This document shows positions 2,738-33,961 of a stretch of 34,710 nucleotides of DNA, in pieces (positions within the stretch are counted from its first letter, which is position 1; every line of letters begins with the position of its first letter). The position numbers were made by a program, and so were the translations under genes. The DNA lies in contig JAQWSX010000214.1 in NCBI GenBank assembly GCA_029242935.1, positions 1-34,710 on the forward strand. Reading direction: 5' to 3'. The notes under the pieces are model-generated. The model was not told the origin of the DNA. It worked only from the letters and a program-made list of their open reading frames with translations, and did not search any database. The DNA is from Akkermansiaceae bacterium (lineage in GTDB: Bacteria > Verrucomicrobiota > Verrucomicrobiia > Verrucomicrobiales > Akkermansiaceae).

Positions 2738-5413
2738 TTACTCCTGTTTACGGACTCGGAAGAAGATTTTACCGGTCTTAGCAATGAAGTTAACTGATGC
2801 GCTTGAAATGACGACGGTTGTCGAATCGCCCTGTGACTCAATGCTGTCGTCGAGCTCATCCCATAGATTGATATCAGTTTCGTTCAGGTTATCTTTGGCA
2901 TAAATCGCATAACTTTGCCCTCCCCGTGAGTTCCACGTGAGCGACACATCACCATTGGCAGCAGTGGAAATTGAAGTGATCACAAAAGGTGCCCCACCTG
3001 CGCCGCGATAAGCTTTCAAGCCACCGTTTTCGACATCGTTGAAAAGGACTTTGTTTCCATCCTCTTTGATAGAGAAGATTTCGATATTCGCACCACCTCC
3101 TCCATTCGTCCATATGACTCTGATAGGATAGATTCCAGCCTCAATCACGTTAAAGACAAAGATACTATCAGCAGCACCCCGAGGCGCATCGAACTCACCT
3201 AAGAGTTCACGACTTTCAGGCTGATCAAGTGGCCCTGCTTCCATCCGAAATCCATCGTCACTATTAACCCCAACGGTATTAAAGCCGGCGGGAAACTCAA
3301 CAAAGGTAACGATTTCTGCGCTCGCTCCATCAGCGATAAAATTGAGGCCAGGAACCCCAGGCATTTGGAGATCATCAGGGAAGTTTCCGGCAGAGTCACC
3401 TCCCAGTTGATTGAGGTTAATGACCGAAGGGATTTCAAACTCGAGGAGCGGGCCAACTACGATCCCAGGACCAATCGCAGGTCCGATCAAATCAGGATCA
3501 GCGAAGTTTTCGTCCGCAAATTCTCCCGCCAAGTTAAGCTCTGTATCTACAAGGGAATCCTGGATAAACGCTCCATTTTGAATCACTCTCCATATAAAGC
3601 CAGGATTCGAGGTACTGACACCAGATGCCTTGAGATCCGGAGTGAGAATCCCAAATATGGGAGCCTTCACGATCCCCGTCTCGGTCCCAACAATATTACC
3701 AAGAGTATCAACCAATTCGATTCGGAAGGTGTGTTCAGAATCTGTCTCGAAGGGAGCTTCGAGAGTATGGGTGAAGTCAGTAGCACCTTGAACTTTGTCG
3801 CTAGCCACGAGCTCGACCTCATCATCATCGATAAAGAGCTTAGAAGCGGCTGGATCAACCTCGCACCCTTCGAAGTCATTTCCTCGGAAGGAAAAGTTAG
3901 TGAGACTTGTCACTGTAGGCCCGGTGATCGCTGATACGAAACAAGGTTCACTAGGAGGGGCAAAGCCATCCAGTGTCACGAGTGCGGTCTGTTCTGGGCT
4001 CTTACCGAAGACTAGAGCGTGAGCCCCCAACCCCCCCCAGCCTCTCTGTCCGGGAGTGTTTTTATCACCATCATTAATTGCCATCCCGAGGCCGAACTGC
4101 ACGCCACTTTCGAGTGCCTCGAGTTCCATCGATGCTTTGGGCAGTTTAATTTCATAAATGGTCCGCTTAGCGTCAACGTCGCGGGAAACAAAAGCGGTCG
4201 TGCCGCCTACGCCTGCTTCTTCGAGCATCACTTGACCACCCAAGGAATCCTCGACTCCACCGAGCGCGTAATTGTAAAGCGCGATTTGCGTGTCTTGCTT
4301 GTCATTAGCGATCATCAGCTGAACCGAATCGCCATTCCATGCACTGTTGGCGGAGTTTTCGTGGTATTCATCAGTGACTAGAAATGCGAAATAAACATTA
4401 TCATCGTCATAGGAAATTTGAACCGCCGAAGTCTGATCATCCGGTCCGCTCCAGCTCCCTCCGTTATGGGTTTCAAACAGAGAAAGATTGCCGCCATCTT
4501 TACGACTTCCCGATCCTTTAGGAATCGCGAAACGAGGGTCCGAAAGGACAGGAACGCCCTGCCAATCATCGAGTTTCCCGTCGATTACGATCTCCCCAGG
4601 AGCTGTTTTTGCTGAGTGAAATTCTTTGCCCGCTTCGATATCGTTTGCAGTTGCGAGAGTAATGAGAGCGGTCTGTTCTGGGCTCTTACCGAAGACGATG
4701 GCGTGGGCCCCAAGCCCCCCCCAGCCTCTCTGTCCAGGAGTATCTTTATCCCCATCGTTAATTGCCATCCCAAGTCCAAACTGGGTCCCTCCAATGAGCT
4801 CATCCAGTTCCATTGATTCTTTTGGAAGTTTGATTTCATAGGTGGTTCGCTTTGTTTCCACATTTCTTTTTACCACCGCTTCGGTTCCGCCAGGACCTGC
4901 TTCTTCGAGCATCACTTGTCCCCCCAAAGCCTCCTCAACTCCTCCGAGAGCATAGTTATAGAGTGCCACCTGTATGTCTCGATCCGCATTTGCGACCATG
5001 AGTTGAACGGAATCTCCATTCCAGGCACTATTTGCCGAATTTTCGTGGTATTCGTCGGTGACAACAAAACCAAAGTAAATGTTGTCATCGTCATAGACAA
5101 CTCGGACTGCAGAAGTGTGGTCATCGGGCCCGCTCCAGTTACCGCCATTGTGTTTTTCAAAATTCACAAGGCTCCCATTTTCGGCAGAGCCTTTTGGAAT
5201 CGCAAACCGAGGATCTGCCAAGATAGCAGCACCACTCCATTCTGAGAGATCCCCATCGATAACGATTGGTTGGGCGGCTTTAATCGCAGTGTAATACTGT
5301 TTCCCCGGCTCGATGTCATTAGCGCTTGCTTCGATGAAGAGGACCCCGATAGCTGCAACTCCAAAGAATATTTTTTTCATGCTCATAATTTTAGCAACAA
5401 TTCCATGAGCCAC
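2738..5413 (-). CDS. Secreted protein with two tandem CBM9-like modules, PA14-like domain and shared C-terminal module
   Basis: The signal peptide is K-K-I-F-F-G-V-A-A-I-G-V-L-F. Two starts are possible. The ATG at 5413 has a GAGGTGG-like ribosome site, while the ATG at 5380 gives the more usual short basic N-terminus. Residues about 32-259 and 260-487 are tandem copies of a CBM9/DOMON-like module (V-I-D-G-D-L-S-E-W, later Y-D-D-D-N-I-Y-F and N-G-D-S-V-Q-L-M). Residues about 490-590 look Ig-like. Residues about 600-800 resemble the PA14-like domain common in this phylum (S-D-D-G-F-R, then G-G-G-G-A-N-I-E). The last 80 or so residues are the W-D-E-L-D-D / F-F-R-V-R module shared with other proteins in this window. 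No catalytic motif is visible, so it is probably a surface glycan-binding protein. Ligand and role are inferred. Confidence 0.85.
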   Translation of the reverse strand: MAHGIVAKIMSMKKIFFGVAAIGVLFIEASANDIEPGKQYYTAIKAAQPIVIDGDLSEWSGAAILADPRFAIPKGSAENGSLVNFEKHNGGNWSGPDDHTSAVRVVYDDDNIYFGFVVTDEYHENSANSAWNGDSVQLMVANADRDIQVALYNYALGGVEEALGGQVMLEEAGPGGTEAVVKRNVETKRTTYEIKLPKESMELDELIGGTQFGLGMAINDGDKDTPGQRGWGGLGAHAIVFGKSPEQTALITLATANDIEAGKEFHSAKTAPGEIVIDGKLDDWQGVPVLSDPRFAIPKGSGSRKDGGNLSLFETHNGGSWSGPDDQTSAVQISYDDDNVYFAFLVTDEYHENSANSAWNGDSVQLMIANDKQDTQIALYNYALGGVEDSLGGQVMLEEAGVGGTTAFVSRDVDAKRTIYEIKLPKASMELEALESGVQFGLGMAINDGDKNTPGQRGWGGLGAHALVFGKSPEQTALVTLDGFAPPSEPCFVSAITGPTVTSLTNFSFRGNDFEGCEVDPAASKLFIDDDEVELVASDKVQGATDFTHTLEAPFETDSEHTFRIELVDTLGNIVGTETGIVKAPIFGILTPDLKASGVSTSNPGFIWRVIQNGAFIQDSLVDTELNLAGEFADENFADPDLIGPAIGPGIVVGPLLEFEIPSVINLNQLGGDSAGNFPDDLQMPGVPGLNFIADGASAEIVTFVEFPAGFNTVGVNSDDGFRMEAGPLDQPESRELLGEFDAPRGAADSIFVFNVIEAGIYPIRVIWTNGGGGANIEIFSIKEDGNKVLFNDVENGGLKAYRGAGGAPFVITSISTAANGDVSLTWNSRGGQSYAIYAKDNLNETDINLWDELDDSIESQGDSTTVVISSASVNFIAKTGKIFFRVRKQE
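3953..5320 (-). repeat. Tandem duplication of a 684-bp coding unit
   Basis: Two direct repeats (about 4637-5320 and 3953-4636) encode the two CBM9-like modules. Landmark stretches such as GGTCTGTTCTGGGCTCTTAC recur exactly 684 bases, or 228 codons, apart (at about 3986 and 4670). DNA identity is high in blocks, which suggests a fairly recent or gene-converted duplication. Boundaries are approximate. Confidence 0.85.
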
Positions 5414-7681: not shown

Positions 7682-9466
7682 TCACAAATCGTCTTTCTTG
7701 GGCTGTGAGATGTAGCCATTGGCTACATAGAGATCTTCCCAGCCATCGTTATTAAAATCTCCAAGTCCTGCCCCCCAAGCCCAACCCGCATACCCCTCGT
7801 CCATTGGGCTGGTGACATCGGAGAATCCTCCAGAACCGTTGTTCCGCATTAGCGAATTACCACGCACCATTTTCAGGTAACGCTGACGCGTTTGTTCGGC
7901 CATCGAAGGATTAAAGTTGGACCGCGGAATGAGCAGGTTTCCAGCCCCGGAAAACATGCTTGAAATATAAAGATCCATATTTCCATCCCGATCCAAGTCT
8001 CCCCAACATGCTGACATCCCAAAGCCCCAATCCTGAGACATGCTTTCCACTGAGGTGTCAAAAAACTTTCCGCCATCATTACGCAGCAGTTGATTGGGAC
8101 CAAAGTCATTAGCGACATAGAGATCTGAATCGCCATCGTTATCGTAGTCTTCCCAAGCAGCCGCAAAGGAGAAACGGAAGTTCCCTTCGCCCAGGCCACT
8201 TTCTTGGGTGGCGTCAGAAAAGCGGAGCTGCCCCTGATTTTTCAGGAGCATATTCGCTCCGCCATTACGGGCGTCATGAAATGGGTGAGGAGTCGGGAAG
8301 TCACCAACTTCCCGGCTGTCGGCATTGTAGCGAAGGATCAGTAGATCTAAGTCACCATCGAGATCATAATCTGAAGCGGTTGGAGAATACCCCGATCTAA
8401 GCTCCCTAAATTCAGAGCGAAGCGTGAATACTGCTGCTCCATCATTTTCCAGAATTAAAAATGCGGCCTTAGTTGCAACAGCGAGATCCTTATCACCGTC
8501 GTTATCCAAATCTACGAGCAATGCGGCGGTCGAGTTGTCCAGCCAATCAATACCTGCAGCCGCTGAAATATCGGTCAGGGTGCCATCCTCTTCTTGCCTA
8601 AAGAGTAAATTAGGCAGACCACCAGGTTGGCAGAGGTGAAGATCTTCAAGACCGTCGCCATCAACATCCCCAACAGCTACGCCATGATAGCCGAGAAAGT
8701 CAGGCTTAAGAACCTCATCGATTCGTCGCACCCAATGATTCATGCCAAGTTGCAGTTGCTGGTTCCAAGAATCATTCCCACCCAAAACATTGGGAGCAAT
8801 ATCCTCAAACCCCTCAGTATCTTTTTCTCTAAACTCGCTTTGAACGAGATTTGGCATCGAGAAACTCAAGAGTTCGGGGAGTTGATTATCGTCGGGTAGA
8901 GTCCACACTGCCTCGACCACCGCTTGGGAACGGATATTCTTTCCATCATTGAAACCACTTGCAGTTAGAAGTTGCCGGGTCCTTAAAGTTCCCGCGTCGC
9001 TCTGAACTCGATAAACCTTAAACTTGAGGTATGACTCATCCGATTCAACGTCGAAGCAGAGAGCTGTCTTCATTTGTTCAAAAAACTTTCCGAGTCCCGT
9101 TGGCGTTTCAGAAAATGAATAGGAAAGATCCCGGACACGAATTGAAGATCCCGCATTCCTTTCTTTCTGCTGTTTTGACTGGAAGTCTATCGTGGTGATC
9201 GTTTTAGCAGAGTCGTCTTTACTAAGAGATTCCGTCGGCTCCAAAAGAGTATCGGCAAGCTCGGACAATTGTTCTTTGACCGCAGCGCTCCAAGCTTCAG
9301 CTTCTTCAGTTGTTGAGGTCTCTTTTGAAACGGCCAGCTCAACATTGGATGTTGGGTCTTCTTGCTTCTCCGAGCATCCTAAAAACAAGAGACATCCAAT
9401 CATCACCAAAAAGGTAATTGAGAAGATGGCGAAGCGAGATCTCTTGAACATATCAACCGAGGGCAT
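7682..9466 (-). CDS. Upstream half of a split protein: probable lipoprotein with FG-GAP/VCBS repeats
   Basis: The N-terminus has a hydrophobic segment (residues about 11-31) with two cysteines, in M-I-G-C and F-L-G-C, followed by S-E-K. This suggests lipidation, although the lipobox is not ideal. Residues about 255-590 hold six or more FG-GAP/VCBS blades with calcium-loop motifs such as D-V-D-G-D-G-L-E-D, D-L-D-N-D-G-D-K-D, D-Y-D-N-D-G-D-S-D and D-F-N-N-D-G-W-E-D. The family (CRTAC1-like, UnbV) is extracellular and its function is mostly unknown. The ORF ends K-K-D-D-L-TGA in the middle of a conserved block, and the next codon opens the in-frame ORF at 7681. Without the downstream ORF the propeller would be incomplete. 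The start may be the ATG at 9466 or at 9451; neither has a clear ribosome site. Confidence 0.85.
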   Translation of the reverse strand: MPSVDMFKRSRFAIFSITFLVMIGCLLFLGCSEKQEDPTSNVELAVSKETSTTEEAEAWSAAVKEQLSELADTLLEPTESLSKDDSAKTITTIDFQSKQQKERNAGSSIRVRDLSYSFSETPTGLGKFFEQMKTALCFDVESDESYLKFKVYRVQSDAGTLRTRQLLTASGFNDGKNIRSQAVVEAVWTLPDDNQLPELLSFSMPNLVQSEFREKDTEGFEDIAPNVLGGNDSWNQQLQLGMNHWVRRIDEVLKPDFLGYHGVAVGDVDGDGLEDLHLCQPGGLPNLLFRQEEDGTLTDISAAAGIDWLDNSTAALLVDLDNDGDKDLAVATKAAFLILENDGAAVFTLRSEFRELRSGYSPTASDYDLDGDLDLLILRYNADSREVGDFPTPHPFHDARNGGANMLLKNQGQLRFSDATQESGLGEGNFRFSFAAAWEDYDNDGDSDLYVANDFGPNQLLRNDGGKFFDTSVESMSQDWGFGMSACWGDLDRDGNMDLYISSMFSGAGNLLIPRSNFNPSMAEQTRQRYLKMVRGNSLMRNNGSGGFSDVTSPMDEGYAGWAWGAGLGDFNNDGWEDLYVANGYISQPKKDDL

Positions 9467-11219: not shown

Positions 11220-11404
11220 TTTTCCTCAAGGTGCCACTCTGGCCCGAAAAGAGATGAGCAGCACAAGTGATTTGACCACTCGAAATATCAACAGATCCGA
11301 AGTGTCATGATAGGACATCTATAAAAATGATTCATGACGCCCGGGCGAAGAAGTTTTCTCTTCAAGCTTGCTACCGTCTTCAACGTTTCATACCCTACAC
11401 CACT

Positions 11405-13354
11405 ATGTCATCTAATACAGCAAAACGCTTGAGACGGAATCTATTCTTTGCCCTGCTGAGCCTGCTGGGGCATAGCGCACATGCTCAAACAATCGGATTC
11501 ACCGACGGTTATGAGATCGCAAACTGGGAAAAAACCGAAATTCTCGCAACCGATCAGTTGGTTTCCGACGGAATCACCAACATGTTCGAGAGTAATATCA
11601 ATGGTGTCGCGCAGAGTGCGGAATTCAGCTACGATGTCACCTTACCCGGTGGTGGAGTGAGTAATCGCACTGCGGACTACACCATCACTCTGGCAAACAA
11701 TGCGGAGATCACCTTTGATTGGGAATTCAGTGGAATGCACGCTTGGTGGCAGGCTTTTGCCGAATTTCGAATCATCGTAAACGGCGAGGTCGTGGGAAGC
11801 CCCGTTGACCTATCTAATACTTCCGGAGACTTTTTTTTCTCTGGCTTTGACCAAAAACTTAACGTCCAAGCAGGAGACAACTTCGGCTTTCGTATTGGTG
11901 GCCAGAACTTCGATTCGACCTCGATCGTTAGAGGAGTCCTCATTATCAGCAACTTCCGGGTTGTTCAGGAAGGTGAGAGCGATTCTGACAAAGACGGCCT
12001 CCCGGATATCTGGGAGATAAAATATGGGTTGAGCACAAACGATGATGGGTCGGTCAACATCAATAATGGCCCTGACGGCGACCCTGACAATGATGACCTC
12101 GATAACCTCGCCGAACTCGAAGCGGAGACAGATCCAACATCGGCCGACACCGACTCTGACGGCCTCAGCGATAGCGTCGAGGATGGAGGTGGAACCTTTG
12201 TGAATGCCAGCAAGACCGGAACGAGCCCCATCAACCCTGACTCTGATAATGACGGCCTTCTCGATGGTGTCGAAAACCCCCTTCTTGATTTCGTTGACGC
12301 CGACCAAACTGGAACCAACCCTCATGTAGCCGACACCGACGGCGACGGAGTGAACGACGGAATTGAAGTTTCCGTTGGTCGCAATCCGACAGAGGCTGAT
12401 AGCACTGGACCACGCGATGGGATTGTCGCCAACTTCGACGATGCCGGAGAAAAATATACCGAAGAGGCCCGCCGAGCTCAGCCTGTTGGAAGACTTGCAG
12501 CTGCGAATGCTGAATCTGATGGAGCCTACTACCAACTTCTCCAGACCTTAGGTAACTTAGGGAACTTCATTTCCTTTGAGTCTGAAGAGGACTACGCAGG
12601 TTGGCAAAATTTCTCCTTCACAATGGACTTCCTCGCAACCTCAGTCGCAGCTGACGGATGGGGAATTAACTTTCTTTCGACTGCTGTTCACGGTGATTCT
12701 GGCGTCATACCGAACCTCGGAAACGAAGAAAATGCGACTGTCGACAACTCTTTCGGTGTTGGTTTCAAGACCTTCCAATCAACCGAAGCCTCAATTACTT
12801 GGAATGGTGCTGACGTGAGTGGAAGACTTCCATTCTCCTTGACGACTGACACTTGGGCCTCGCTCTCGATTGATGTCGAACGTGATCCAGGAACTAACAC
12901 CGCGCTTGTGGATGTTTCTGTTTACCCTGACCGCAACCGCCAAGGAGAAGCTGAAAACATCTACACTGACTTCGAGATCAAAGACATGGACCTGCAAGAC
13001 TTCCGAGTTCAGGTCATGGGCCGAACCGGAGGATCAAGCATGAATCTCGGGATTGATAACCTAGTTCTTCTTGTTGACGGAGGAGCAAGTGCAAAACCTC
13101 TCGAAATTATTGCCGTCACTACCGAGGTCGAAGACGGAGGCCAAACGCAAGCAGTTACCATTACCTGGAATTCCAAAGAAGGCCGCACCTACAGTATTTT
13201 AGCAAGCGACGATCTTGGCGAAGGCAACCTAGACTTGTGGGAAGAACTCGACGATGGTTTTAGTGCCGCAGCTGGAGAAACAACCACTTCGTTCACTGAG
13301 ACCGGAGTTCCCCTTGAAACCAAGCAGCGCTTCTACGTCGTTCTTATTCCTTAA
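11405..13354 (+). CDS. Secreted thrombospondin-3-repeat and lectin-like protein with shared C-terminal module
   Basis: I prefer the ATG at 11405 over an upstream in-frame ATG at 11327, because it gives a clean signal peptide (basic R-L-R-R, then a hydrophobic core, cut near A-H-A). In order: a beta-sandwich domain (residues about 30-190), a calcium-binding thrombospondin type 3 stretch (about 195-335, with D-S-D-K-D-G-L-P-D, D-S-D-N-D-G-L-L-D and D-T-D-G-D-G-V-N-D), a concanavalin/L-type-lectin-like domain (about 340-565), and the shared C-terminal module (T-W-N-S-K-E-G-R-T-Y-S-I, W-E-E-L-D-D-G, F-Y-V-V-L-I-P-stop). No enzyme motif is seen. It is probably a calcium-stabilised surface adhesin or glycan-binding protein; the role is inferred. 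A strong terminator follows 35 bases after the stop. Confidence 0.85.
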   Translation: MSSNTAKRLRRNLFFALLSLLGHSAHAQTIGFTDGYEIANWEKTEILATDQLVSDGITNMFESNINGVAQSAEFSYDVTLPGGGVSNRTADYTITLANNAEITFDWEFSGMHAWWQAFAEFRIIVNGEVVGSPVDLSNTSGDFFFSGFDQKLNVQAGDNFGFRIGGQNFDSTSIVRGVLIISNFRVVQEGESDSDKDGLPDIWEIKYGLSTNDDGSVNINNGPDGDPDNDDLDNLAELEAETDPTSADTDSDGLSDSVEDGGGTFVNASKTGTSPINPDSDNDGLLDGVENPLLDFVDADQTGTNPHVADTDGDGVNDGIEVSVGRNPTEADSTGPRDGIVANFDDAGEKYTEEARRAQPVGRLAAANAESDGAYYQLLQTLGNLGNFISFESEEDYAGWQNFSFTMDFLATSVAADGWGINFLSTAVHGDSGVIPNLGNEENATVDNSFGVGFKTFQSTEASITWNGADVSGRLPFSLTTDTWASLSIDVERDPGTNTALVDVSVYPDRNRQGEAENIYTDFEIKDMDLQDFRVQVMGRTGGSSMNLGIDNLVLLVDGGASAKPLEIIAVTTEVEDGGQTQAVTITWNSKEGRTYSILASDDLGEGNLDLWEELDDGFSAAAGETTTSFTETGVPLETKQRFYVVLIP

Positions 13355-13527: not shown

Positions 13528-14550
13528 CTAAGGAGAATATCTCACCACCTTTACCGCTTCCGGCTTATCAGAAAAATAACCGTAGACATTCAGAATAATT
13601 TCATCATCTCCCCCGTTCTGTTTGCGATACTGATCAATCACGGCAGTGATATCAACCTCGAGTTTCTCTGATACCAGCCCACGGCAAAGATCTCCATTGC
13701 TATTGTGCTTAAGCCACAGATTTGCCTGCGCTGGGAACGATTCACCGAAGATAGACGGACTCATGAAAACCTCGAATTCATGGTCTTCGCAGCCTCCACC
13801 GTAGTCGACATCAACTGTAAGCAAGCACCCTTTCAGCGAGACGTTTTGAAGCGTAAACGGATCGAGTTGAAAAGTTTCCGGATCGTCATTGCTAATTTCG
13901 ACCGGAAGCTGACCTCCACCATTGATTCTGACCCTGTAGTATTCAGAGCCTACTTTTTCACGTTTAAATTTCACGGAGAGCGCATACCCCTCAGTGAAAT
14001 CTTGAGACACCTCCTCCAATTGTCCGACTTCAACCCAGTCGTTAAGATCGTTAGACACTTCGACAATCAAATCTGGAACAGGAAACTCCGCAACATATTC
14101 TAGACCATCAAATAGCAGCACCTTGGAGACTGGATCAAAAACACCAAATCTTAGCTGTCCATCAAAGAGCTCTGCTTCGATCGTAAACTCTCCTGTGAAT
14201 TGATAGGCTCCAATCTGGATGAAATCAGATTGAAACCATTCGAAAACATCGTTATCATTCCATGTCAATCGATGTCTTGTTGTCCCTAGATTCGGGATTC
14301 CAGGTGGACCATCAACTTGAAACGTTTTTTTTGAGAGATAGGCCTCTTTTTTCCAATCCAATGGGGGAGGGAGGCGAACTGATAAATCAACTACCCCTTG
14401 TTCGATCAAGATATTCACCACCCTCGGATCGACCTGAGCCGCTTCCGCGACGATTTGGTTTGAACCGAAAATACATAGTGACGTGACAAAACAGGCTAGA
14501 ATTTTTGAGAAGGACGTTAATTTGGAGCAGAGACAAAAATGTTGTTTCAT
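13528..14550 (-). CDS. Secreted protein with shared-module-like segment and NigD-like C-terminal domain
   Basis: This 340-residue protein has a long signal peptide (hydrophobic at about residues 18-30, cut near V-A-E-A-A). An AAGGA ribosome site six bases before the ATG supports the start; it is one of the few clear ones in the window. Residues about 158-209 contain V-E-V-S-N-D-L-N-D-W and E-Y-Y-R-V-R-I, which match the core of the shared C-terminal module seen elsewhere in the window. Residues about 232-325 resemble a NigD-like domain (Y-G-G-G-C-E-D-H, then A-N-L-W-L-K-H-N and G-D-L-C). NigD-like proteins are secreted or lipid-anchored, and their function is poorly defined. Operon partners are not evident, since the next minus-strand gene upstream ends 342 bases away. 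Function unknown. Confidence 0.8.
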   Translation of the reverse strand: MKQHFCLCSKLTSFSKILACFVTSLCIFGSNQIVAEAAQVDPRVVNILIEQGVVDLSVRLPPPLDWKKEAYLSKKTFQVDGPPGIPNLGTTRHRLTWNDNDVFEWFQSDFIQIGAYQFTGEFTIEAELFDGQLRFGVFDPVSKVLLFDGLEYVAEFPVPDLIVEVSNDLNDWVEVGQLEEVSQDFTEGYALSVKFKREKVGSEYYRVRINGGGQLPVEISNDDPETFQLDPFTLQNVSLKGCLLTVDVDYGGGCEDHEFEVFMSPSIFGESFPAQANLWLKHNSNGDLCRGLVSEKLEVDITAVIDQYRKQNGGDDEIILNVYGYFSDKPEAVKVVRYSP

Positions 14551-14892: not shown

Positions 14893-16269
14893 CTATGGAG
14901 GATTCCCGATGAGATCGAGATCAAAGCTAATGTCAGAGCTGGTGGAGCTTGTTTGGTGAATTTCGACAGCGAAGGTATTTGAGCCGGAGACAAAAACAGA
15001 AGGCGAGAGGCTACGGCTAACGGTAACGTCTTCGTTACCGTTAGCGAAGTCATCGAAAGCGGGATTGGCGCCGATGTTCTCGCGGGCGACCTCGGCGCCG
15101 TTGAGGTAGATAATAGTGCTGTCGTCGTAGGTAAAGTTTAGGGTGAAGTCTTCGAAGACAGATGGATCGGCGATGGAGAAGGTTTTGCGAAAGTAAGTGG
15201 TGGGGTGCTTATTGTTTCCGTCTCCGCCAAAGCTGACGATGGTGGCTTCATCACCATCGCCGTATCCAAGTTGGGAGGGCCCTGAGTCCCAGTCTGCGTC
15301 ATTGAAGGAGGAAGCACGCCAGGCGGTTCCTTGGTTACTGCCGTCGTCGAGGTATTTCCAATCGTCACCGCTATCGACGAAGACAGTTGTTGTTGGCCCG
15401 CCACCTCCGATTATTGCAACGACTCGAATCAGTTTTTTGGGAGCAGCTGATATAGGCATCCGCAAGGTGATCGAGTTGGCTGTGGTTGTGATTTCAGCAT
15501 CCGATGCAGCGAGGTTAAGATCCGTCCACTCTCCGCCATTTTGCGCGGACAATTCTTGAAACTTGATCATTTCTCTCCCTTCTGGATTGAGGGGAAGGGT
15601 GTAGACCCAGATATTTTCATCTTGTGGATCCTGACCAAATGTTCCGGGGAAAGCCGCTATTCCTAAAGGATCTAAATCAAAGACAAATTCGAGAAGGTTT
15701 TCGATCCCATCACCATCGGGATCGGCACTTGGTCCCGAAATAGCGGGATCATCAAGGTCCGCACCGGACCAAAATGATTCAGTCCATATTTCAAGCGGAG
15801 AAGCCGGCTGATTGACAGTTAGCGTGAACGTATAGGGAGGGGTTTTCTTGCCTCTCTGGTTTTTTTCCTCCCATCCCACAATTTGAACCTCAAATGTGCC
15901 ACTTGTAGTTGGGCTTCCTGTAATTGAACTAATGGGCTTTCCAAAAGTATAAGTGAGCCCCGGGGGCAGAGTCGAAACGCTATATGATTTAGCGGTCTCA
16001 CCGATGGTTCGGAAAAGCCAAGCGAAGGTTTCATCCACATTACCCGTAGCGGGATTGGTTGAGCCACCGGTGGGATTCACACTGGGAGAAGCTCCCGAGA
16101 GGGTGTCGATTCCAACGAACGAAATTACGAGAGGAGCCGCAAACTGGCCACCGGGAGAACCGGGCAACAATGGGAACAACTGCTTGAGAAACGGGAGCCT
16201 CTGAGCTGTCATGGAAAGACCGCTGGCTAACAAATGCAGTAACTTTTGAATGAAAAATCGATTGGTCAT
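14893..16269 (-). CDS. Secreted Ig-like and jelly-roll protein, last gene of the DUF3570 operon
   Basis: The N-terminus has hydrophobic segments that may be an atypical signal sequence. Residues about 55-155 look like a putative Ig (He_PIG-like) domain (L-P-P-G-L-T-Y-T, then T-G-S-P-T-T-S-G-T-F). Residues about 160-205 carry S-A-D-P-D-G-D-G-I-E-N-L-L-E-F, a calcium-loop motif frequent before C-terminal modules in this phylum. Residues about 215-300 include W-T-D-L and L-I-R-V-V and may be a diverged form of the shared module. Residues about 305-458 are a jelly-roll domain (G-T-A-W-R, Q-L-G-Y-G-D-G-D-E, Y-F-R-K-T-F, Y-L-N-G-A-E-V, S-S-D-I-S-F-D-L). The start lies 24 bases after the DUF4266 stop, so it is probably co-transcribed. 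No enzyme motif is seen. Its link to the redox genes upstream is unexplained. Confidence 0.82.
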   Translation of the reverse strand: MTNRFFIQKLLHLLASGLSMTAQRLPFLKQLFPLLPGSPGGQFAAPLVISFVGIDTLSGASPSVNPTGGSTNPATGNVDETFAWLFRTIGETAKSYSVSTLPPGLTYTFGKPISSITGSPTTSGTFEVQIVGWEEKNQRGKKTPPYTFTLTVNQPASPLEIWTESFWSGADLDDPAISGPSADPDGDGIENLLEFVFDLDPLGIAAFPGTFGQDPQDENIWVYTLPLNPEGREMIKFQELSAQNGGEWTDLNLAASDAEITTTANSITLRMPISAAPKKLIRVVAIIGGGGPTTTVFVDSGDDWKYLDDGSNQGTAWRASSFNDADWDSGPSQLGYGDGDEATIVSFGGDGNNKHPTTYFRKTFSIADPSVFEDFTLNFTYDDSTIIYLNGAEVARENIGANPAFDDFANGNEDVTVSRSLSPSVFVSGSNTFAVEIHQTSSTSSDISFDLDLIGNPP

Positions 16270-17011: not shown

Positions 17012-18178
17012 TTAGAAATTACACTGGAGGCCTAGCGAAATGACATTGGCGGAAGGGAAAAGGACACTCGGCGTGGAAGATTGGCGGCCTGACATTTCAT
17101 ATCGTTCCAATTGCAGATCAATCGAGATTTCCTCAACCGGAAAATATGAAAACTGCAAACCATAAGTAAGGGAATCGAGAGCTGAAAGTCGGTAGTCCGA
17201 GGAATAAAAGGGGCCCTTGCCGTCATTTCTTCCGTGCCCATCAATTCCGCTGCCAGTGAGAAACGGTTGATAAAAATCAGCGCCTTTCTGTTGGTAATAC
17301 CGCAAATAAGGAGTAACGATCCATTGCTCGGCAAATTCCTGTACCCACTTAAGTTCAAAGGTATGTCCGGTCAGGGAATTACTATTGGCAAAGAAACGGT
17401 AAGAACCGTGAAGCGCCCCAGAAGCTGACTCAAAGTAATGTTTAGCAGCAATTCTCGCAACCCAGCGATCGATCGTGTCCGGCCGATTTTCCGGAAAATC
17501 GAAAGTATCTGTGACCAGAAAAGTTCCCACTGGAGTAACCACATCAACGGTCGATGTTTGCGAAATCTGGCGGTAAGGATCAGAAAGGTATCCCGCACTG
17601 TGCCCGTAGCCAAAATTAAGATCAACAACCGTGTTGGGTCCTAGAACCTGAGAAACGGCCAATGAGAAATCGATGGAGTCTTTGTCCTGGTTCTCTGCAA
17701 TAGACGTGAACGGAGTGGCTAGAACTTCATCAAAGGCAAAGGAGGCTCCGGCGCTCACAAGGGTATTCTTGCTAAAAAGATCCCGGTTGAGTCGAAGTGA
17801 AAACGCATTAGAACCGTAATCGGATTCCTTGCTGTGGGCATATTCAAAGCTGAGGGTGTAATCATCAATTTCATGCTCAACAGTAATCACTTCCACAGTG
17901 CGTTCGTCAGAGATGTCTTGAAAATTCCAGTCACTCTCGTCGAGACTCGCGTGGGTTCCAATCGGGGTTTGACCGCTAAGAGTGTCAATTGCGAGACGGA
18001 GCCCAAGGGTCGTTCCAACGTCAAACCTGTGTTTGTAATCCAGATAGTGGGATTCAACTTCCATGCGGCCATCGTCCTCACCATAATACTGCGCCCGGTA
18101 ACGCAGGATCTCCTGCCCGTGTCCTTTGGCAATGGCGAGGAGTGGGAGTGAAACGAAGAGTTTATTTTGAAAGGACAT
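17012..18178 (-). CDS. DUF3570 beta-barrel-like outer-membrane protein
   Basis: This 388-residue protein begins with a signal peptide (residues 1-21). It then shows alternating amphipathic strands throughout, rich in tyrosine and charged residues, ending in the aromatic C-terminus L-G-L-Q-C-N-F typical of outer-membrane barrels. The opening (R-Y-R-A-Q-Y-Y-G-E-D-D, then Y-L-D-Y, then S-G-Q-T-P-I-G) matches what I remember of DUF3570. Length is about normal for the family. It is the first gene of a four-gene minus-strand operon with the thioredoxin, DUF4266 and an Ig/jelly-roll protein. A porin or transport role linked to the redox lipoprotein is plausible but unproven. Confidence 0.85.
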   Translation of the reverse strand: MSFQNKLFVSLPLLAIAKGHGQEILRYRAQYYGEDDGRMEVESHYLDYKHRFDVGTTLGLRLAIDTLSGQTPIGTHASLDESDWNFQDISDERTVEVITVEHEIDDYTLSFEYAHSKESDYGSNAFSLRLNRDLFSKNTLVSAGASFAFDEVLATPFTSIAENQDKDSIDFSLAVSQVLGPNTVVDLNFGYGHSAGYLSDPYRQISQTSTVDVVTPVGTFLVTDTFDFPENRPDTIDRWVARIAAKHYFESASGALHGSYRFFANSNSLTGHTFELKWVQEFAEQWIVTPYLRYYQQKGADFYQPFLTGSGIDGHGRNDGKGPFYSSDYRLSALDSLTYGLQFSYFPVEEISIDLQLERYEMSGRQSSTPSVLFPSANVISLGLQCNF

Positions 18179-27840: not shown

Positions 27841-28860
27841 CTACGGGCTTTTAACTACCACGAAGAACTGACGATCGTTCAATGGTAGACCCTCGTTATT
27901 GAAATCGATCGGGTAAACAGTAGTGGATTCGCCAGCAGCAGCCGGGACCCCATCATTCAATTCGAGCCAATTTGAGAGAGGTAGGGACAGATCGTTTGAT
28001 GTATAGATCGAATAGAGATTTCCTTCTTTCGATGTGAATGTGAGATCGACCAGAATATTATCTTCAGTCTGAGAATAATTCACGTCAACGATCTGAAAAA
28101 GACTGGCAGATCCACCACCCGTCAAGCTTGCAACACTGGCCCCAGCGCCGTCATTCCATATCGAAGCCACCTCTTCTGGAGTGAGCGGGCGATCCCAGAT
28201 TGCGACATCATCGATATTTCCATCCCACCCTCTATTAGCAGCCTGTGGATTACCACCGATTTGCAACGATAAACCGGCACCGTTAGCCAAAACCCATGCC
28301 CCCTGCGATGCCGCCTCTTCTCCGTCGATATACATCGTAATATTTCCTGTAGCATCGTGCGTGACCGCGACATGATGCCATGATCCGTCTTGCTGATCAA
28401 GGTTAGCAGGCACATTCCCGGGGCCCCCTACGCTATATTTTAAGTTTGTCCCTGACCCTCCATGTCGGGCAATACGCCAGTTATTCCCTTCACCTTGGCT
28501 AATCAAGGTATTCCAGTTGGTGTAGAGAGATTCAGTCGTATACCAAACAGAGACCGACATACTTCCAGCCTCGAAAGCAAACTCACCAGGATCGCCAACG
28601 TTGATGAGAGCCTGATTGCCTGCCCCTCCACTGTTTTCCAAATCGACCGCGGAACCAAATTTTCCGGCAACAAACGATGCCTTACCGATGCCCGTTTGAA
28701 CGAGGACACCATCGTTGGTTTCGTCTAATCCAGCTGCTAAGTCTCCGTCGAATTCCCAGTATTCGACGAGACCATCAACAAGTTCCGCATTTGAGAGCGA
28801 AGTGCTAAAACAAGAGATCCCCAGGGATAGAAAGGTTGCGAGAGTGTAATTTTTTTTCAT
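27841..28860 (-). CDS. Secreted LamG-like lectin protein with shared C-terminal module
   Basis: This 339-residue protein has a signal peptide (residues 1-25) and a LamG/concanavalin-like domain at about 28-245, with W-E-F-D-G-D-L, S-V-S-V-W-Y, H-H-V-A-V-T-H-D and I-D-D-V-A-I-W-D-R-P-L-T-P-E-E. This matches the LamG_3 type. After a short S/G linker, the last 85 or so residues are the shared module (F-T-S-K-E-G-N-L-Y-S-I-Y, S-N-D-L, W-L-E-L-N-D-G, G-E-S-T-T-V, F-F-V-V-V-K-S-P-stop). It is probably an extracellular glycan-binding protein without an enzyme domain. The upstream region is 413 bases long. Confidence 0.88.
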   Translation of the reverse strand: MKKNYTLATFLSLGISCFSTSLSNAELVDGLVEYWEFDGDLAAGLDETNDGVLVQTGIGKASFVAGKFGSAVDLENSGGAGNQALINVGDPGEFAFEAGSMSVSVWYTTESLYTNWNTLISQGEGNNWRIARHGGSGTNLKYSVGGPGNVPANLDQQDGSWHHVAVTHDATGNITMYIDGEEAASQGAWVLANGAGLSLQIGGNPQAANRGWDGNIDDVAIWDRPLTPEEVASIWNDGAGASVASLTGGGSASLFQIVDVNYSQTEDNILVDLTFTSKEGNLYSIYTSNDLSLPLSNWLELNDGVPAAAGESTTVYPIDFNNEGLPLNDRQFFVVVKSP

Positions 28861-30287: not shown

Positions 30288-30468
30288 TCATGCAGTTTCT
30301 CACTACCGGGCACCAAACGCATCCCTAATCTCAACTCGAAACTAAAATTGCAAAATTGGGTTCAGATTACACCGATCCCAATCAACGGATTTTTTGTTGG
30401 GATCGACGAATCCTGTGGGAATCCCCTCCTTGACCGAATCACATTCAAAGCCGAACCTCTTCATTGAT

Positions 30469-32709
30469 ATGCGGAGATTGTCAGTGATCCTAACAAGCGC
30501 CTTTTTGCTGGCGCTCCACGCCCAAATCCAACCATCTGCCCCTCAACTTTCCGAGAACGGTAAATTCCGCCTCGCCGTTCCTCAAACAGAGAATCACTAT
30601 GCCATCCTCTCCCGATCGAAAGACCTCGTCGAATGGAGGCCCGTCGATATTATTGCGCTTTCCCAAGCCGAAAACTGGATCAGAGATTCCGTCACCCCAT
30701 CTGATAAGGCCTACTTCCAAGTGCGGGTAGTTCCCAACTCCGATCCACTGGATACCGATGGAGACGGTATCAATGATTTCTCCGAGCTTAACACCTCGGG
30801 CACCGGTTGCACCGCGCTCAATCCAGCCACAAAATTCCCTTCCACTAGCGGCTCCCGCTTCATGCTCGACCGCGCAACCTTTGACGCACTTTCCAAGACG
30901 TCCGGAGTACCCGGCGCTCAAGAGATCAGACTCGTCAAGTTTCTCATCACCGATATTCGAACCAACCCACGGCTCCACTTCGTCAACTCGAACACCCACC
31001 CGCTTCATTACGACTTCGCAAGACGCGCCCTTAACCGCTACACCAACTTCGACTACAATACGGGACGATTCTTTTTCGACCGCGAGACCTACATTGGAGG
31101 CTCGGGGCGCAAGAATATCGCCGGTTCCCTCATCTCTCACCAAAACTATGTCGCCAACGACGGGAGGAAGGGAATCTACACGGTCGAATTCTGGCCTACC
31201 GACCCGCTCCCGTTCGAGTTTATTGAGCTCGCCTACGAGGCGATCGCTCGCTGCTCCCCCTTCATTGATCAACTGCTCTACCACGCTCCCAGCCAAACCC
31301 AACGTCAACTCCAAACACTCAACCAGGAAAAGTTCGATGCCTCCTTTGTCCACACCATCGACACCAATGACCTCTTCTCGAATACTGACTACCAGCCCAT
31401 GCATCAACAGGAAGCATTTGGCAGACTCAGAGTCGCCGATAGTGCCGGATCCTTGGGCGCACGGGACATCGTCATCTTCCGCAACCTACCGAACGACCTC
31501 ACCAAGATCGCCGGAATCATCACTGAAGTTCCTCAAACTCCTCTTTCTCACGTCAACCTCAAGGCGCAACAAAACGATACTCCTAACGCCTACATCGCCA
31601 ATGCCAGCACCCATCCGGACATCGCTCCGTTCATTGGAAAAAACGTTTTCTATCGAGTTTCCCAAGACGGTTTTGAAATCCGTATAGCCACGCAAGTTGA
31701 AGTCGATCAATTCTTGGAAAACCTTCGCCCACTCACCCCTAGTTTCCCTCCACGCGATTTATCTAAAACCACCATCCAACCTCTCTCCTCGGTCTTCTTT
31801 TCCGAGAGCGATTCCTTCGGAGGTAAAGCGGCCAACGTTGCCGAGCTTCGCCGCATCATGCCCGCCAACGCCCCTGATGGCTTTGCCATTCCATTTTACT
31901 TCTACGATGAATTCATGAAGCACAACAACTTCTACACCGAAGCACAGGCCATGATCACCGCCCCTGACTTCCAATCTAACCTTACCATCCGCGAGGCCCG
32001 TCTCGAAACCTTCCGTTCTCGTATTAAAAAAGAGAGCACCTTCCCGGCCTGGATGGAAACAGCACTCACCACCTTACAAAATTCCTTCCCTTCCGACATC
32101 AGCCCACGCCTCCGCTCCAGCGCCAATGCCGAAGACTCGATCACCTTTAACGGCGCCGGACTTTACGATTCCTACACGCACAAAGCCAACGAAGGACACA
32201 TCGGAAAAAGTGTCCGCCAAGTTTGGGCCAGTCTTTGGAATTATCGCGCCTACGAGGAACGCGAATTCTATCGCATCGATCACCTCACCTCCGCCATGAG
32301 TGTTCTCGTCCACTCGAACCAGAAGAACGAACAAGCCAACGGCGTCACCGTAGCCAGCAACATCTTTATCCCAACGAGAGAAGGATACTACATTAACGCA
32401 CAGATCGGTGAAGACCTCGTCACCAACCCTGATGTTGCCTCCTCACCCGAGGAGATTCTCGTCTCCCCGCTTTTTGGTGCAGAGACTTACGAAATTCAAT
32501 ATATCCGCTTCTCCAACCAGCTCCCTAACGACAAACGTGTCCTCACCAAGCCCCAGATCCTCGATCTCGTGGCGAAAATGAAACTACTCAACAAGCACTT
32601 CAAATCGCTCTACAATAGCAGCGACTCTTCCTTCGCTATGGAGATCGAATTTAAAATCACTTCCGAAGGCAAGCTCCTCATCAAACAAGCCCGTCCCTGG
32701 GTAAACTAA
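30469..32709 (+). CDS. Exported PEP/pyruvate-dikinase-like protein
   Basis: I start at the ATG at 30469, 25 codons inside the longest frame, because it opens a signal peptide (R-R-L-S-V-I-L-T-S-A-F-L-L-A-L-H-A-Q). Residues about 30-90 resemble the shared module (Y-A-I-L-S-R-S-K-D-L-V-E-W, then Y-F-Q-V-R-V-V-P). A calcium-loop motif D-P-L-D-T-D-G-D-G-I-N-D follows at about 92-105. The middle region is unrecognised. A swivelling phospho-histidine-like domain contains T-P-L-S-H (His361). The C-terminal half is a PPDK_N/ATP-grasp domain with S-F-G-G-K-A-A-N (Lys453), R-S-S-A-N-A-E-D (549-556) and the final I-K-Q-A-R-P-W. The order His domain then ATP domain matches glucan water dikinase. An ATP-dependent enzyme with a signal peptide is odd. 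The C-terminal Q-A-R-P-W is complete, so it is not truncated. Its substrate is unknown. Confidence 0.85.
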   Translation: MRRLSVILTSAFLLALHAQIQPSAPQLSENGKFRLAVPQTENHYAILSRSKDLVEWRPVDIIALSQAENWIRDSVTPSDKAYFQVRVVPNSDPLDTDGDGINDFSELNTSGTGCTALNPATKFPSTSGSRFMLDRATFDALSKTSGVPGAQEIRLVKFLITDIRTNPRLHFVNSNTHPLHYDFARRALNRYTNFDYNTGRFFFDRETYIGGSGRKNIAGSLISHQNYVANDGRKGIYTVEFWPTDPLPFEFIELAYEAIARCSPFIDQLLYHAPSQTQRQLQTLNQEKFDASFVHTIDTNDLFSNTDYQPMHQQEAFGRLRVADSAGSLGARDIVIFRNLPNDLTKIAGIITEVPQTPLSHVNLKAQQNDTPNAYIANASTHPDIAPFIGKNVFYRVSQDGFEIRIATQVEVDQFLENLRPLTPSFPPRDLSKTTIQPLSSVFFSESDSFGGKAANVAELRRIMPANAPDGFAIPFYFYDEFMKHNNFYTEAQAMITAPDFQSNLTIREARLETFRSRIKKESTFPAWMETALTTLQNSFPSDISPRLRSSANAEDSITFNGAGLYDSYTHKANEGHIGKSVRQVWASLWNYRAYEEREFYRIDHLTSAMSVLVHSNQKNEQANGVTVASNIFIPTREGYYINAQIGEDLVTNPDVASSPEEILVSPLFGAETYEIQYIRFSNQLPNDKRVLTKPQILDLVAKMKLLNKHFKSLYNSSDSSFAMEIEFKITSEGKLLIKQARPWVN

Positions 32710-33004: not shown

Positions 33005-33961
33005 ATGAATACGCCCCAAAACAACTACAGAAAACTGCTTCTCATTGTTACTACTGTTCTGAGTAGCACGCTCGTTTCCAACCGAGCAATGGGTGCCGAT
33101 GCCATTTTCGAACTCGATGCCGGCGCCGACCGTGAGACCGACGGCACTTTTGTTTTCGACACCATCCCATCGAATTCATCAACCGATTTCGCAAACGGCA
33201 AAACGTTTACCGTCCTAGATGGCAGTTCGCATGATGTATCGGGCACGATCGACCACCTAACAGACGGATTGGGACAAACCAACGGCGACTCGTGTTGTGG
33301 ACCCGATTCCGAAAGCTTCTTTGCCGGACCCACAGGTGCAGAAGACAACCTACGCATCCAACTCGATCTCGAGGTCAATGTTCCAATCGCCGAGATCAAC
33401 TCCTACAGCTGGCACAACAACAGTCGTGCCCCACAGATCTACAATGTTTATGGAGCGATTAATCCCAACAACAATGCACCAGATTTTGACGCAGCAGGTT
33501 TTCAAGAAAGTGCGGACTTGGCCGCGCTTGGTTACACTTTGATCGCGAGTGTCGATTCAATGTCGCTCGGCGGGGCTGGTGGCCAAGTCGGAGTGAGCAT
33601 AACTGGGGATGTGGGAACCTACCGCTACCTGTTATTCGATATCGCACCACCGACATGGCAAGTCGGGACAAGGGCTACATTTTTTGGAGAGATCGATGTC
33701 GTTCCAGCTGGCCCCGTTTCAGTCCCTTTTAAGATCACTGAGTTCCACTATAACTCGGAATTGGAAACGGTGACTTTGACTTGGGATTCGATCCCTAAAA
33801 CAAGTTACGCAGTCAAGTATTCCACTAACATGGAAGACTGGGATTCAGACCTAGATGATGGAGTGAAAGCCGATGATGGCGACACAACCACAAGTACCTT
33901 CGATGTCAGAGGCTTGGCAAGTGCCAGCGGAAAACTGTTCCTTCGTATCGAACGCAATTGA
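33005..33961 (+). CDS. Secreted beta-sandwich protein with shared C-terminal module
   Basis: This 318-residue protein has a signal peptide (hydrophobic at about residues 11-27, cut near A-M-G-A). Residues about 30-240 form a beta-rich domain reminiscent of discoidin-type jelly rolls (Y-N-V-Y-G-A, then Y-R-Y-L-L-F-D-I), but the assignment is weak. The last 77 or so residues are the shared C-terminal module (T-L-T-W-D-S-I-P-K-T-S-Y-A-V-K-Y-S-T-N, D-L-D-D-G, G-D-T-T-T, L-F-L-R-I-E-R-N-stop). It stops 28 bases before the next gene on the same strand, so the two are probably co-transcribed. No Shine-Dalgarno sequence is present. Confidence 0.78.
   Translation: MNTPQNNYRKLLLIVTTVLSSTLVSNRAMGADAIFELDAGADRETDGTFVFDTIPSNSSTDFANGKTFTVLDGSSHDVSGTIDHLTDGLGQTNGDSCCGPDSESFFAGPTGAEDNLRIQLDLEVNVPIAEINSYSWHNNSRAPQIYNVYGAINPNNNAPDFDAAGFQESADLAALGYTLIASVDSMSLGGAGGQVGVSITGDVGTYRYLLFDIAPPTWQVGTRATFFGEIDVVPAGPVSVPFKITEFHYNSELETVTLTWDSIPKTSYAVKYSTNMEDWDSDLDDGVKADDGDTTTSTFDVRGLASASGKLFLRIERN

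Follow-up and report, generated by a model that had tools for sequence, protein, structure and literature searches.

Type IX secretion (T9SS) C-terminal domains are folded beta-sandwiches at the C-terminus of exported proteins, and GlyGly-CTERM and PEP-CTERM tags are short tails made up of a motif, a helix and a basic end. Fibronectin type III (FN3) domains often just bind ligands; adhesive FN3 domains are expected as tandem or internal repeats. The substrates of the type II secretion system (T2SS) are not known to share a linear signal. PMC7949064 describes T2SS as exporting folded proteins, calls its choice of substrates elusive and holds the secretion determinants to be of a structural nature; it also describes the FN3 domain as seven-stranded and reports that loops in the Fn3 domain of the pectate lyase Pel3 are important for its secretion by T2SS. 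GlyGly-CTERM is reported to co-occur with the more widespread T2SS (PMC3237569).

The window, which is the whole 34,710-nucleotide stretch of DNA from an Akkermansiaceae bacterium analyzed here, encodes four proteins with unrelated bodies that are closed by one domain of ~80 residues (CTD). CTD resembles the T9SS domains in that exported proteins end in it and that it is modelled as a beta-sandwich, but has no sequence match to them, and SprA_N was found in 0/114 genomes with a silent control. The short tails of GlyGly-CTERM and PEP-CTERM differ from CTD, which is modelled as a folded domain with no helix and is poorly predicted by exosortase. GlyGly-CTERM with rhombosortase (PMC3237569) and PEP-CTERM with exosortase are alike CTD in that a C-terminal homology domain occurs on many proteins per genome. 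The Fn3 domain of Pel3 and PelI is likewise an FN3-like accessory domain, carried by a T2SS-exported enzyme; that of Pel3 is N-terminal, seven-stranded and part of a composite signal that includes the catalytic domain (PMC7949064), whereas CTD is C-terminal, six-stranded in its model and present on dozens of unrelated proteins.

Four window proteins and their shared C-terminus

The initial annotation, made from the letters, had claimed that four unrelated proteins of the window end alike. Alignment of the four C-termini (77-84 residues, 12 invariant columns) confirmed this claim, and a profile made from the four sequences recovered them at E 1.8e-27 to 1.0e-36. The features are given below with scores from profile A2, which was built from 26 copies of the window's own genome (G000, a 3.16 Mb draft of 219 contigs, 85.5% complete); signal-peptide-like N-termini were called by a home-made rule.

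2738..5413, minus strand: protein with two CBM9-like stretches and CTD (CBM9_1 9.7e-19, two stretches; signal-peptide-like N-terminus)
2738..2986, minus strand: CTD of the CBM9 protein 2738-5413 (A2 79.3 bits, E 6.9e-22, match 2744-2986, stop 1 residue on)
11327..13354, plus strand: protein with TSP3-like repeats and CTD (TSP3_bac 0.0013, two stretches, under the curated cut-off; signal-peptide-like N-terminus)
13100..13354, plus strand: CTD of the TSP3-containing protein 11327-13354 (A2 77.6 bits, E 2.3e-21, match 13100-13345, stop 2 residues on)
13924..14064, minus strand: possible diverged internal relative in protein 13528-14550 (8.4 bits, residues 163-209; borderline)
27841..28860, minus strand: LamG protein with CTD (Laminin_G_3 5.8e-27; signal-peptide-like N-terminus)
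27841..28098, minus strand: CTD of the LamG protein 27841-28860 (A2 74 bits, E 3.2e-20, match 27850-28098, stop 2 residues on)
30589..30726, plus strand: possible diverged relative near the N-terminus of the PPDK_N protein 30394-32709 (8.4 bits for the N-terminal piece alone, 4.0 bits for the whole frame; borderline)
33005..33961, plus strand: protein with CTD and no accepted Pfam body (HepII_C 0.00098 only, under the cut-off; signal-peptide-like N-terminus)
33728..33961, plus strand: CTD of protein 33005-33961 (A2 87.4 bits, E 2.2e-24, match 33728-33955, stop 1 residue on)

Weaker forms had been proposed in the proteins at 13528 and 14893 and at the start of the dikinase. A profile scan of the window frames left the first and the last borderline, with E 0.015 for protein 13528-14550 (best domain 8.4 bits) and E 0.038 for the PPDK_N protein at 30394. 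The proposal fell away for protein 14893-16269 (minus strand), which gave no credible profile score (2.2 bits, E 2.9). By eye, this protein shows the linker DPDGDGIENLLEFVFDLDP, read as 'DGDGIENLLEF..DP', and then a CTD-like strand pattern to which the profile is blind; it is possibly a very diverged copy or a diverged subfamily of CTD.

Two abutting minus-strand frames lie at 5594-7681 and 7682-9466, one with FG-GAP and the other with FG-GAP, ASPIC/UnbV, AhpC-TSA and TPR matches. They look like one gene broken at about 7609-7690; a search of the window and of ~257 kb of stretches from the same genome (overlaps counted) found the 60 bases at that break nowhere else in full. A DUF3570 protein (3.5e-61), which is likely an outer-membrane barrel judging from its family, is encoded at 17012-18178 on the minus strand.

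Fold and family kinship

Kinship was examined with A6, a profile of 53 sequences that is broader than A2. Comparison with solved structures revealed matches to 3mpc_A (2e-7), 5g56_A (1.1e-5) and FN3con 4u3h (0.005), and on this sequence evidence CTD is clearly an FN3 relative. The alignment ended at residue 75 of 103 in 3mpc and at residue 84 of 100 in FN3con 4u3h, reaching the sixth strand only. AlphaFold2 modelling of the 33728-33961 sequence with 32 sequences gave six strands and no helix (pLDDT 93.9, pTM 0.80). Modelling the LamG protein at full length gave a poor result (pLDDT 48.9, 11 sequences), which again had six strands at 257-337, in a block with pLDDT 52-79. Thus six of the seven strands A-G expected of FN3 were modelled, and the PDB alignments stopped before the last part of the chains. 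Since the A6 match ends where FN3 still has its last strand, CTD seems to be an FN3 relative without strand G. The FN3 domains of bacterial enzymes (the Fn3-like protein 3mpc and 5g56) are alike CTD over most of its length by profile match, but they carry the last strand, whereas CTD seems to end short, sits C-terminally and occurs once per protein. Foldseek with the CTD model returned FN3, Ig and CBM-like chains in the 50 rows inspected, with a query TM of up to 0.64 and no PDB match at E<=0.001.

The domain had been left without a family name in the initial annotation, and this still holds, with no Pfam or NCBIfam match above the curated cut-off over CTD in the four window C-termini. Identity with plain Pfam fn3 (PF00041) was rejected: at E<=1 the own genome gave five matches, 0/5 of which lay above the cut-off, and the control was positive in 9/14 genomes. 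Several models gave weak matches. Among the 26 own members, fn3_SORL1 matched four (Pfam, best 0.0037). Among the 53 A6 members, DUF3999 matched 11 (best 4.7e-6), F5_F8_type_C_2 matched 11 (best 0.001) and F5_F8_type_C matched eight. When ten members were viewed singly, DUF3999 was present in six and scored no more than 18.1 bits, where the cut-off is 30, the member with the best E of 4.7e-6 not being singled out, and the F5/8C models were under the cut-off. Among openly licensed papers, judged by title and the opening of the abstract, none was recognised as describing this domain. CTD is a large, real C-terminal domain family that has apparently gone undescribed so far; its novel part is the C-terminal use and the missing strand, FN3 kinship being of an already known kind.

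Copies, position and protein bodies

The four-sequence profile matched 33 places in G000 at E<=10, 29 of them beyond its four seeds, and in all 30 loci of this search that were inspected a stop codon followed 0-34 residues past the local match. A2 matched 49 places at E<=10 and 36 at E<=1e-3. The chain stopped 0-9 residues after 35 of these 36 matches, and the remaining one reached a contig end. Of the 49 matches, 47 were inspected; 45 stopped within 0-10 residues, another ran into a contig end, and the last, covering 22 positions, had 44 residues after it.

Position was also analyzed across six locus sets: the own genome, family-search loci, phylum-search loci, named loci, and the genomes G202 and G056, which held 65 and 50 copies at E<=0.01 and were each represented by their best 30 loci. 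Each family- or phylum-search locus was, judging from the lists, the strongest match in one of the top genomes. At E<=1e-3, A2 identified 193 copies, with duplicates dropped within each set only, so that one protein may recur in two sets; 177 ended <=15 residues from the stop, 12 were internal and four were edge-cut, with profiles trained on C-terminal copies. No frame had two CTD copies. A6 gave a similar picture in the same sets, with 176 of 195 copies near the stop, three cut and 16 internal, several of the internal ones matching only in part and lying close to the chain end. A simple pattern found an F-x-R-V-like core in 161/176 distinct C-termini, with a median tail of four residues after the core. 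When internal copies were inspected by eye, the chain continued and there was no obvious seventh strand. The C-terminal placement noted in the window thus extends, with few exceptions, to many genomes, and matches did not fall mainly in mid-protein. As for the further alternative of a plain FN3 domain with no positional bias, the FN3 kinship is present, but the bias stands and the last strand appears to be missing.

Three observations accompany these loci. Two convergent genes at G056:C7:172965-173373 (L291, L294) are both CTD-ended, with ~20 bases between the matched stretches. A subfamily (L059, L064, L109, L113, L211) has an 'xTATYDxxG'-like stretch after the FYRV strand, either a short tail or the start of a further domain. 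A TSP3-like linker, sought by a simple pattern in the ~60 residues upstream, was present in 12/31 G056, 9/30 G202, 7/28 phylum, 3/30 family, 1/35 own and 0/39 named loci; with the linker upstream of only a minority of copies, it was rejected as part of the CTD module.

The bodies were examined in G000, G202 and G056, where 66 CTD frames have an intact start; the scan covered 57 of them, omitting the eight longest and one weak frame. This analysis revealed 47 Pfam families in total at E<=1e-5. Among the 25 of the 47 families that were listed, LamG was present in 12 proteins and TSP3 in six, and no other family in more than two. They include papain-like and subtilisin-like peptidases, PhoD, parts of purple acid phosphatase, a sulfatase, a beta-lactamase family, a ricin-type lectin, CotH and SASA. 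An excess of signal-peptide-like starts, as the initial annotation had led one to look for, was observed in 54/66 CTD frames compared with 138/265 neighbouring frames (P = 7e-6), under a permissive home-made rule and with spurious frames among the neighbours. In G000 alone the contrast was small (29/32 versus 87/116 others).

A sorting or anchoring tag had been proposed at the outset, by analogy with T9SS. The C-terminal placement, the unrelated bodies and the excess of signal-peptide-like starts are consistent with the tag, and the T9SS analogy was not supported. A tentative reading, which we regard as quite possible, is that CTD may be a C-terminal export or surface-targeting module, with T2SS as the leading candidate partner. 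The main rival, somewhat doubtful though a serious contender, is that CTD would be an ordinary FN3-like binding domain for glycan, matrix or cell-wall adhesion, C-terminal by habit of architecture and with no export machine involved. Its FN3 kinship fits such a role, as do bodies that include LamG, CBM9, lectin and hydrolases, the weak F5_F8_type_C_2 (11/53) and F5_F8_type_C (8/53) resemblance, which was under the cut-off in the members viewed, the 12 internal copies and a genome that has a weak C-terminal copy but no GspG match; however, one copy per frame, placed at the chain end in 177/193 cases and 45/47 in the own genome, would be unusual for an adhesive FN3 domain.

By profile matching, CTD is widespread in Verrucomicrobiota, a phylum rich in polysaccharide degraders. 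A2 at E<=1e-3 identified it in 97/117 genomes of the family set, covering 14/16 genera and all 14 genomes of genus g1. The phylum set had it in 53/145 genomes with A2 and 76/145 with A6. The 38 named loci were mostly from Akkermansiaceae, Verrucomicrobiales or Verrucomicrobiota, with three labelled just 'bacterium' and two outliers, one from Deltaproteobacteria (L143) and one, weak, from Handelsmanbacteria (L153); these two genomes may be misbinned. The Akkermansia-like genus g2 had an A2 match in 1/15 genomes (E 2.5e-4) and A6 matches in 10/15, with 1-6 weak matches each. In one g2 genome, of which 0.8 of 3.06 Mb was searched, A2 had no match and A6 had two weak ones, one internal and one C-terminal (iE 0.007). 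An Akkermansia-like genome encodes a repeat-rich protein of 607 codons (L336, G033:C1:700001-720000, minus strand) that ends in the linker DGITNLMKYATGLDP and a weak C-terminal CTD copy. Many members of the phylum have dozens of exported proteins per genome that end in one uncatalogued domain.

Secretion systems and a candidate role

Three systems were compared with the distribution of CTD. The T9SS likeness proposed by the initial annotation was unsupported. A similar size, a beta-sandwich, the C-terminal position and exported enzymes speak for a type IX C-terminal domain by analogy with T9SS features. Against this, no sorting-domain model turned up when 26 members were matched to Pfam and NCBIfam at E<=10, the sequence kin are FN3 domains, and the 50 Foldseek rows contained no description of a T9SS CTD; SprA_N was found in 0/114 family genomes, the own genome included, and no control genome gave a match either. 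We rejected this identity on the sequence and Foldseek results and consider it very improbable.

Exosortase was present in 98/114 family genomes. CTD was found in 85/98 exosortase-positive and 9/16 exosortase-free genomes (P = 0.008), and, when g2 was left out, in 84/89 and 9/12 (P = 0.05). This is a weak association with no dependence, and exosortase is a poor predictor of CTD. A PEP-CTERM identity was rejected, in agreement with the first reading of the window: CTD ends in a beta strand, its model has no helix and exosortase is not required, as the nine exosortase-free genomes with CTD indicate.

T2SS was followed through GspG, searched as PF08334 (positive in two controls) and present in 95/114 family-set and 121/145 phylum-set genomes. 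CTD occurred in 89/95 family genomes with GspG compared with 5/19 without (P = 1e-9), and in 89/94 compared with 4/7 when g2 was left out (P = 0.01). A similar trend was observed over the phylum. With A6, CTD was found in 66/116 GspG-positive genomes versus 10/29 others (P = 0.04), and without g2 in 66/116 versus 0/14 with no or weak GspG (P = 2e-5). With A2 the counts were 52/116 versus 1/29 (P = 8e-6), and without g2 52/116 versus 0/14 (P = 8e-4). Three non-g2 genomes with weak GspG (G022 8.5e-5, G067 8.8e-6, G120 7.4e-7) were counted as negative; moving them to the positives gave 66/119 versus 0/11. Among non-g2 genomes of <=2.6 Mb, a comparison that omits four GspG-free genomes with no listed size, CTD was present in 12/30 with GspG versus 0/10 (P = 0.019), and at >=4 copies in 8/30 versus 0/10 (P = 0.17). 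Counted by family, the figures were 29/41 versus 0/2. All of these Fisher tests ignore kinship.

T2SS fits the distribution of CTD best of the three systems tested. The initial annotation had asked for one secretion gene set that tracks the domain, and the co-distribution with GspG is suggestive of such a link. The association in this sample rests on few independent GspG-free lineages and is confounded: GspG-free non-g2 genomes are few, 0.9-2.5 Mb where a size is listed, and belong to few lineages. The ten g2 genomes with weak A6 matches had a GspG match in 0/10, CTDs were present in 4/7 non-g2 family genomes that gave no GspG match (drafts of 84-95% completeness), and CTD was missing from 50/116 GspG-positive genomes. 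The same positional evidence (177/193; 45/47 own), together with the CTD copies of some genomes that lack a GspG match, would also suit a C-terminal sorting tag read by a dedicated non-T2SS system, such as a translocon of a new type, a protease resembling sortase or a factor for attachment. This we regard as unlikely: the systems searched offered no candidate gene, SprA_N being found in 0/114 genomes with no control match and CTD being present in 9/16 exosortase-free family genomes and absent from 13/98 exosortase-positive ones.

The reading we tentatively favour, an export or surface-targeting module, would work as follows. CTD would be a portable module, a six-stranded FN3-like beta-sandwich whose lack of the seventh (G) strand would leave the conserved F/Y-x-R-V strand nearly last before the stop codon. 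CTD proteins would cross the inner membrane by an N-terminal signal peptide (Sec) and would then fold in the periplasm, where the free CTD could be read by, or docked on, a common partner of the outer envelope, resulting in export or surface retention. As a guess, the last strand's open edge may be the recognition surface. T2SS would be the candidate partner, and is the leading one because CTD is rare in genomes without GspG, because T2SS exports folded proteins and fits the distribution best, and because the FN3 loops of Pel3 are secretion determinants. If CTD serves as a tag for export or attachment, sequence alone would allow such proteins to be predicted, and the substrate choice of T2SS would become testable by moving one 75-residue module. 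A more specific form, rather unlikely in our estimate, is a modular T2SS address tag in which a T2SS component would supply the strand that completes the open edge of an FN3 domain without strand G. Such strand completion would explain why CTD must end the chain, and a portable address on dozens of unrelated proteins would, if true, be new.

A T2SS pseudopilin gene is present in a genome with CTDs, as contig C214 of G000 carries GspG above the Pfam cut-off (1.5e-21). Further T2SS-like frames, all under NCBIfam cut-offs for the GspH/I/K-like frames of G000 and the GspJ/K/D-like frames of G202, were identified in both genomes. On C214, GspG is followed by GspH-like (3.4e-6) and GspI-like (8.2e-6; ComGE model 5e-6) frames, a frame with a prepilin motif and a GspK-like frame (4.5e-17), where the contig ends; one stretch of G202 holds GspJ-like (6e-5), GspK-like (1.6e-19) and GspD-like (5.5e-84) frames.
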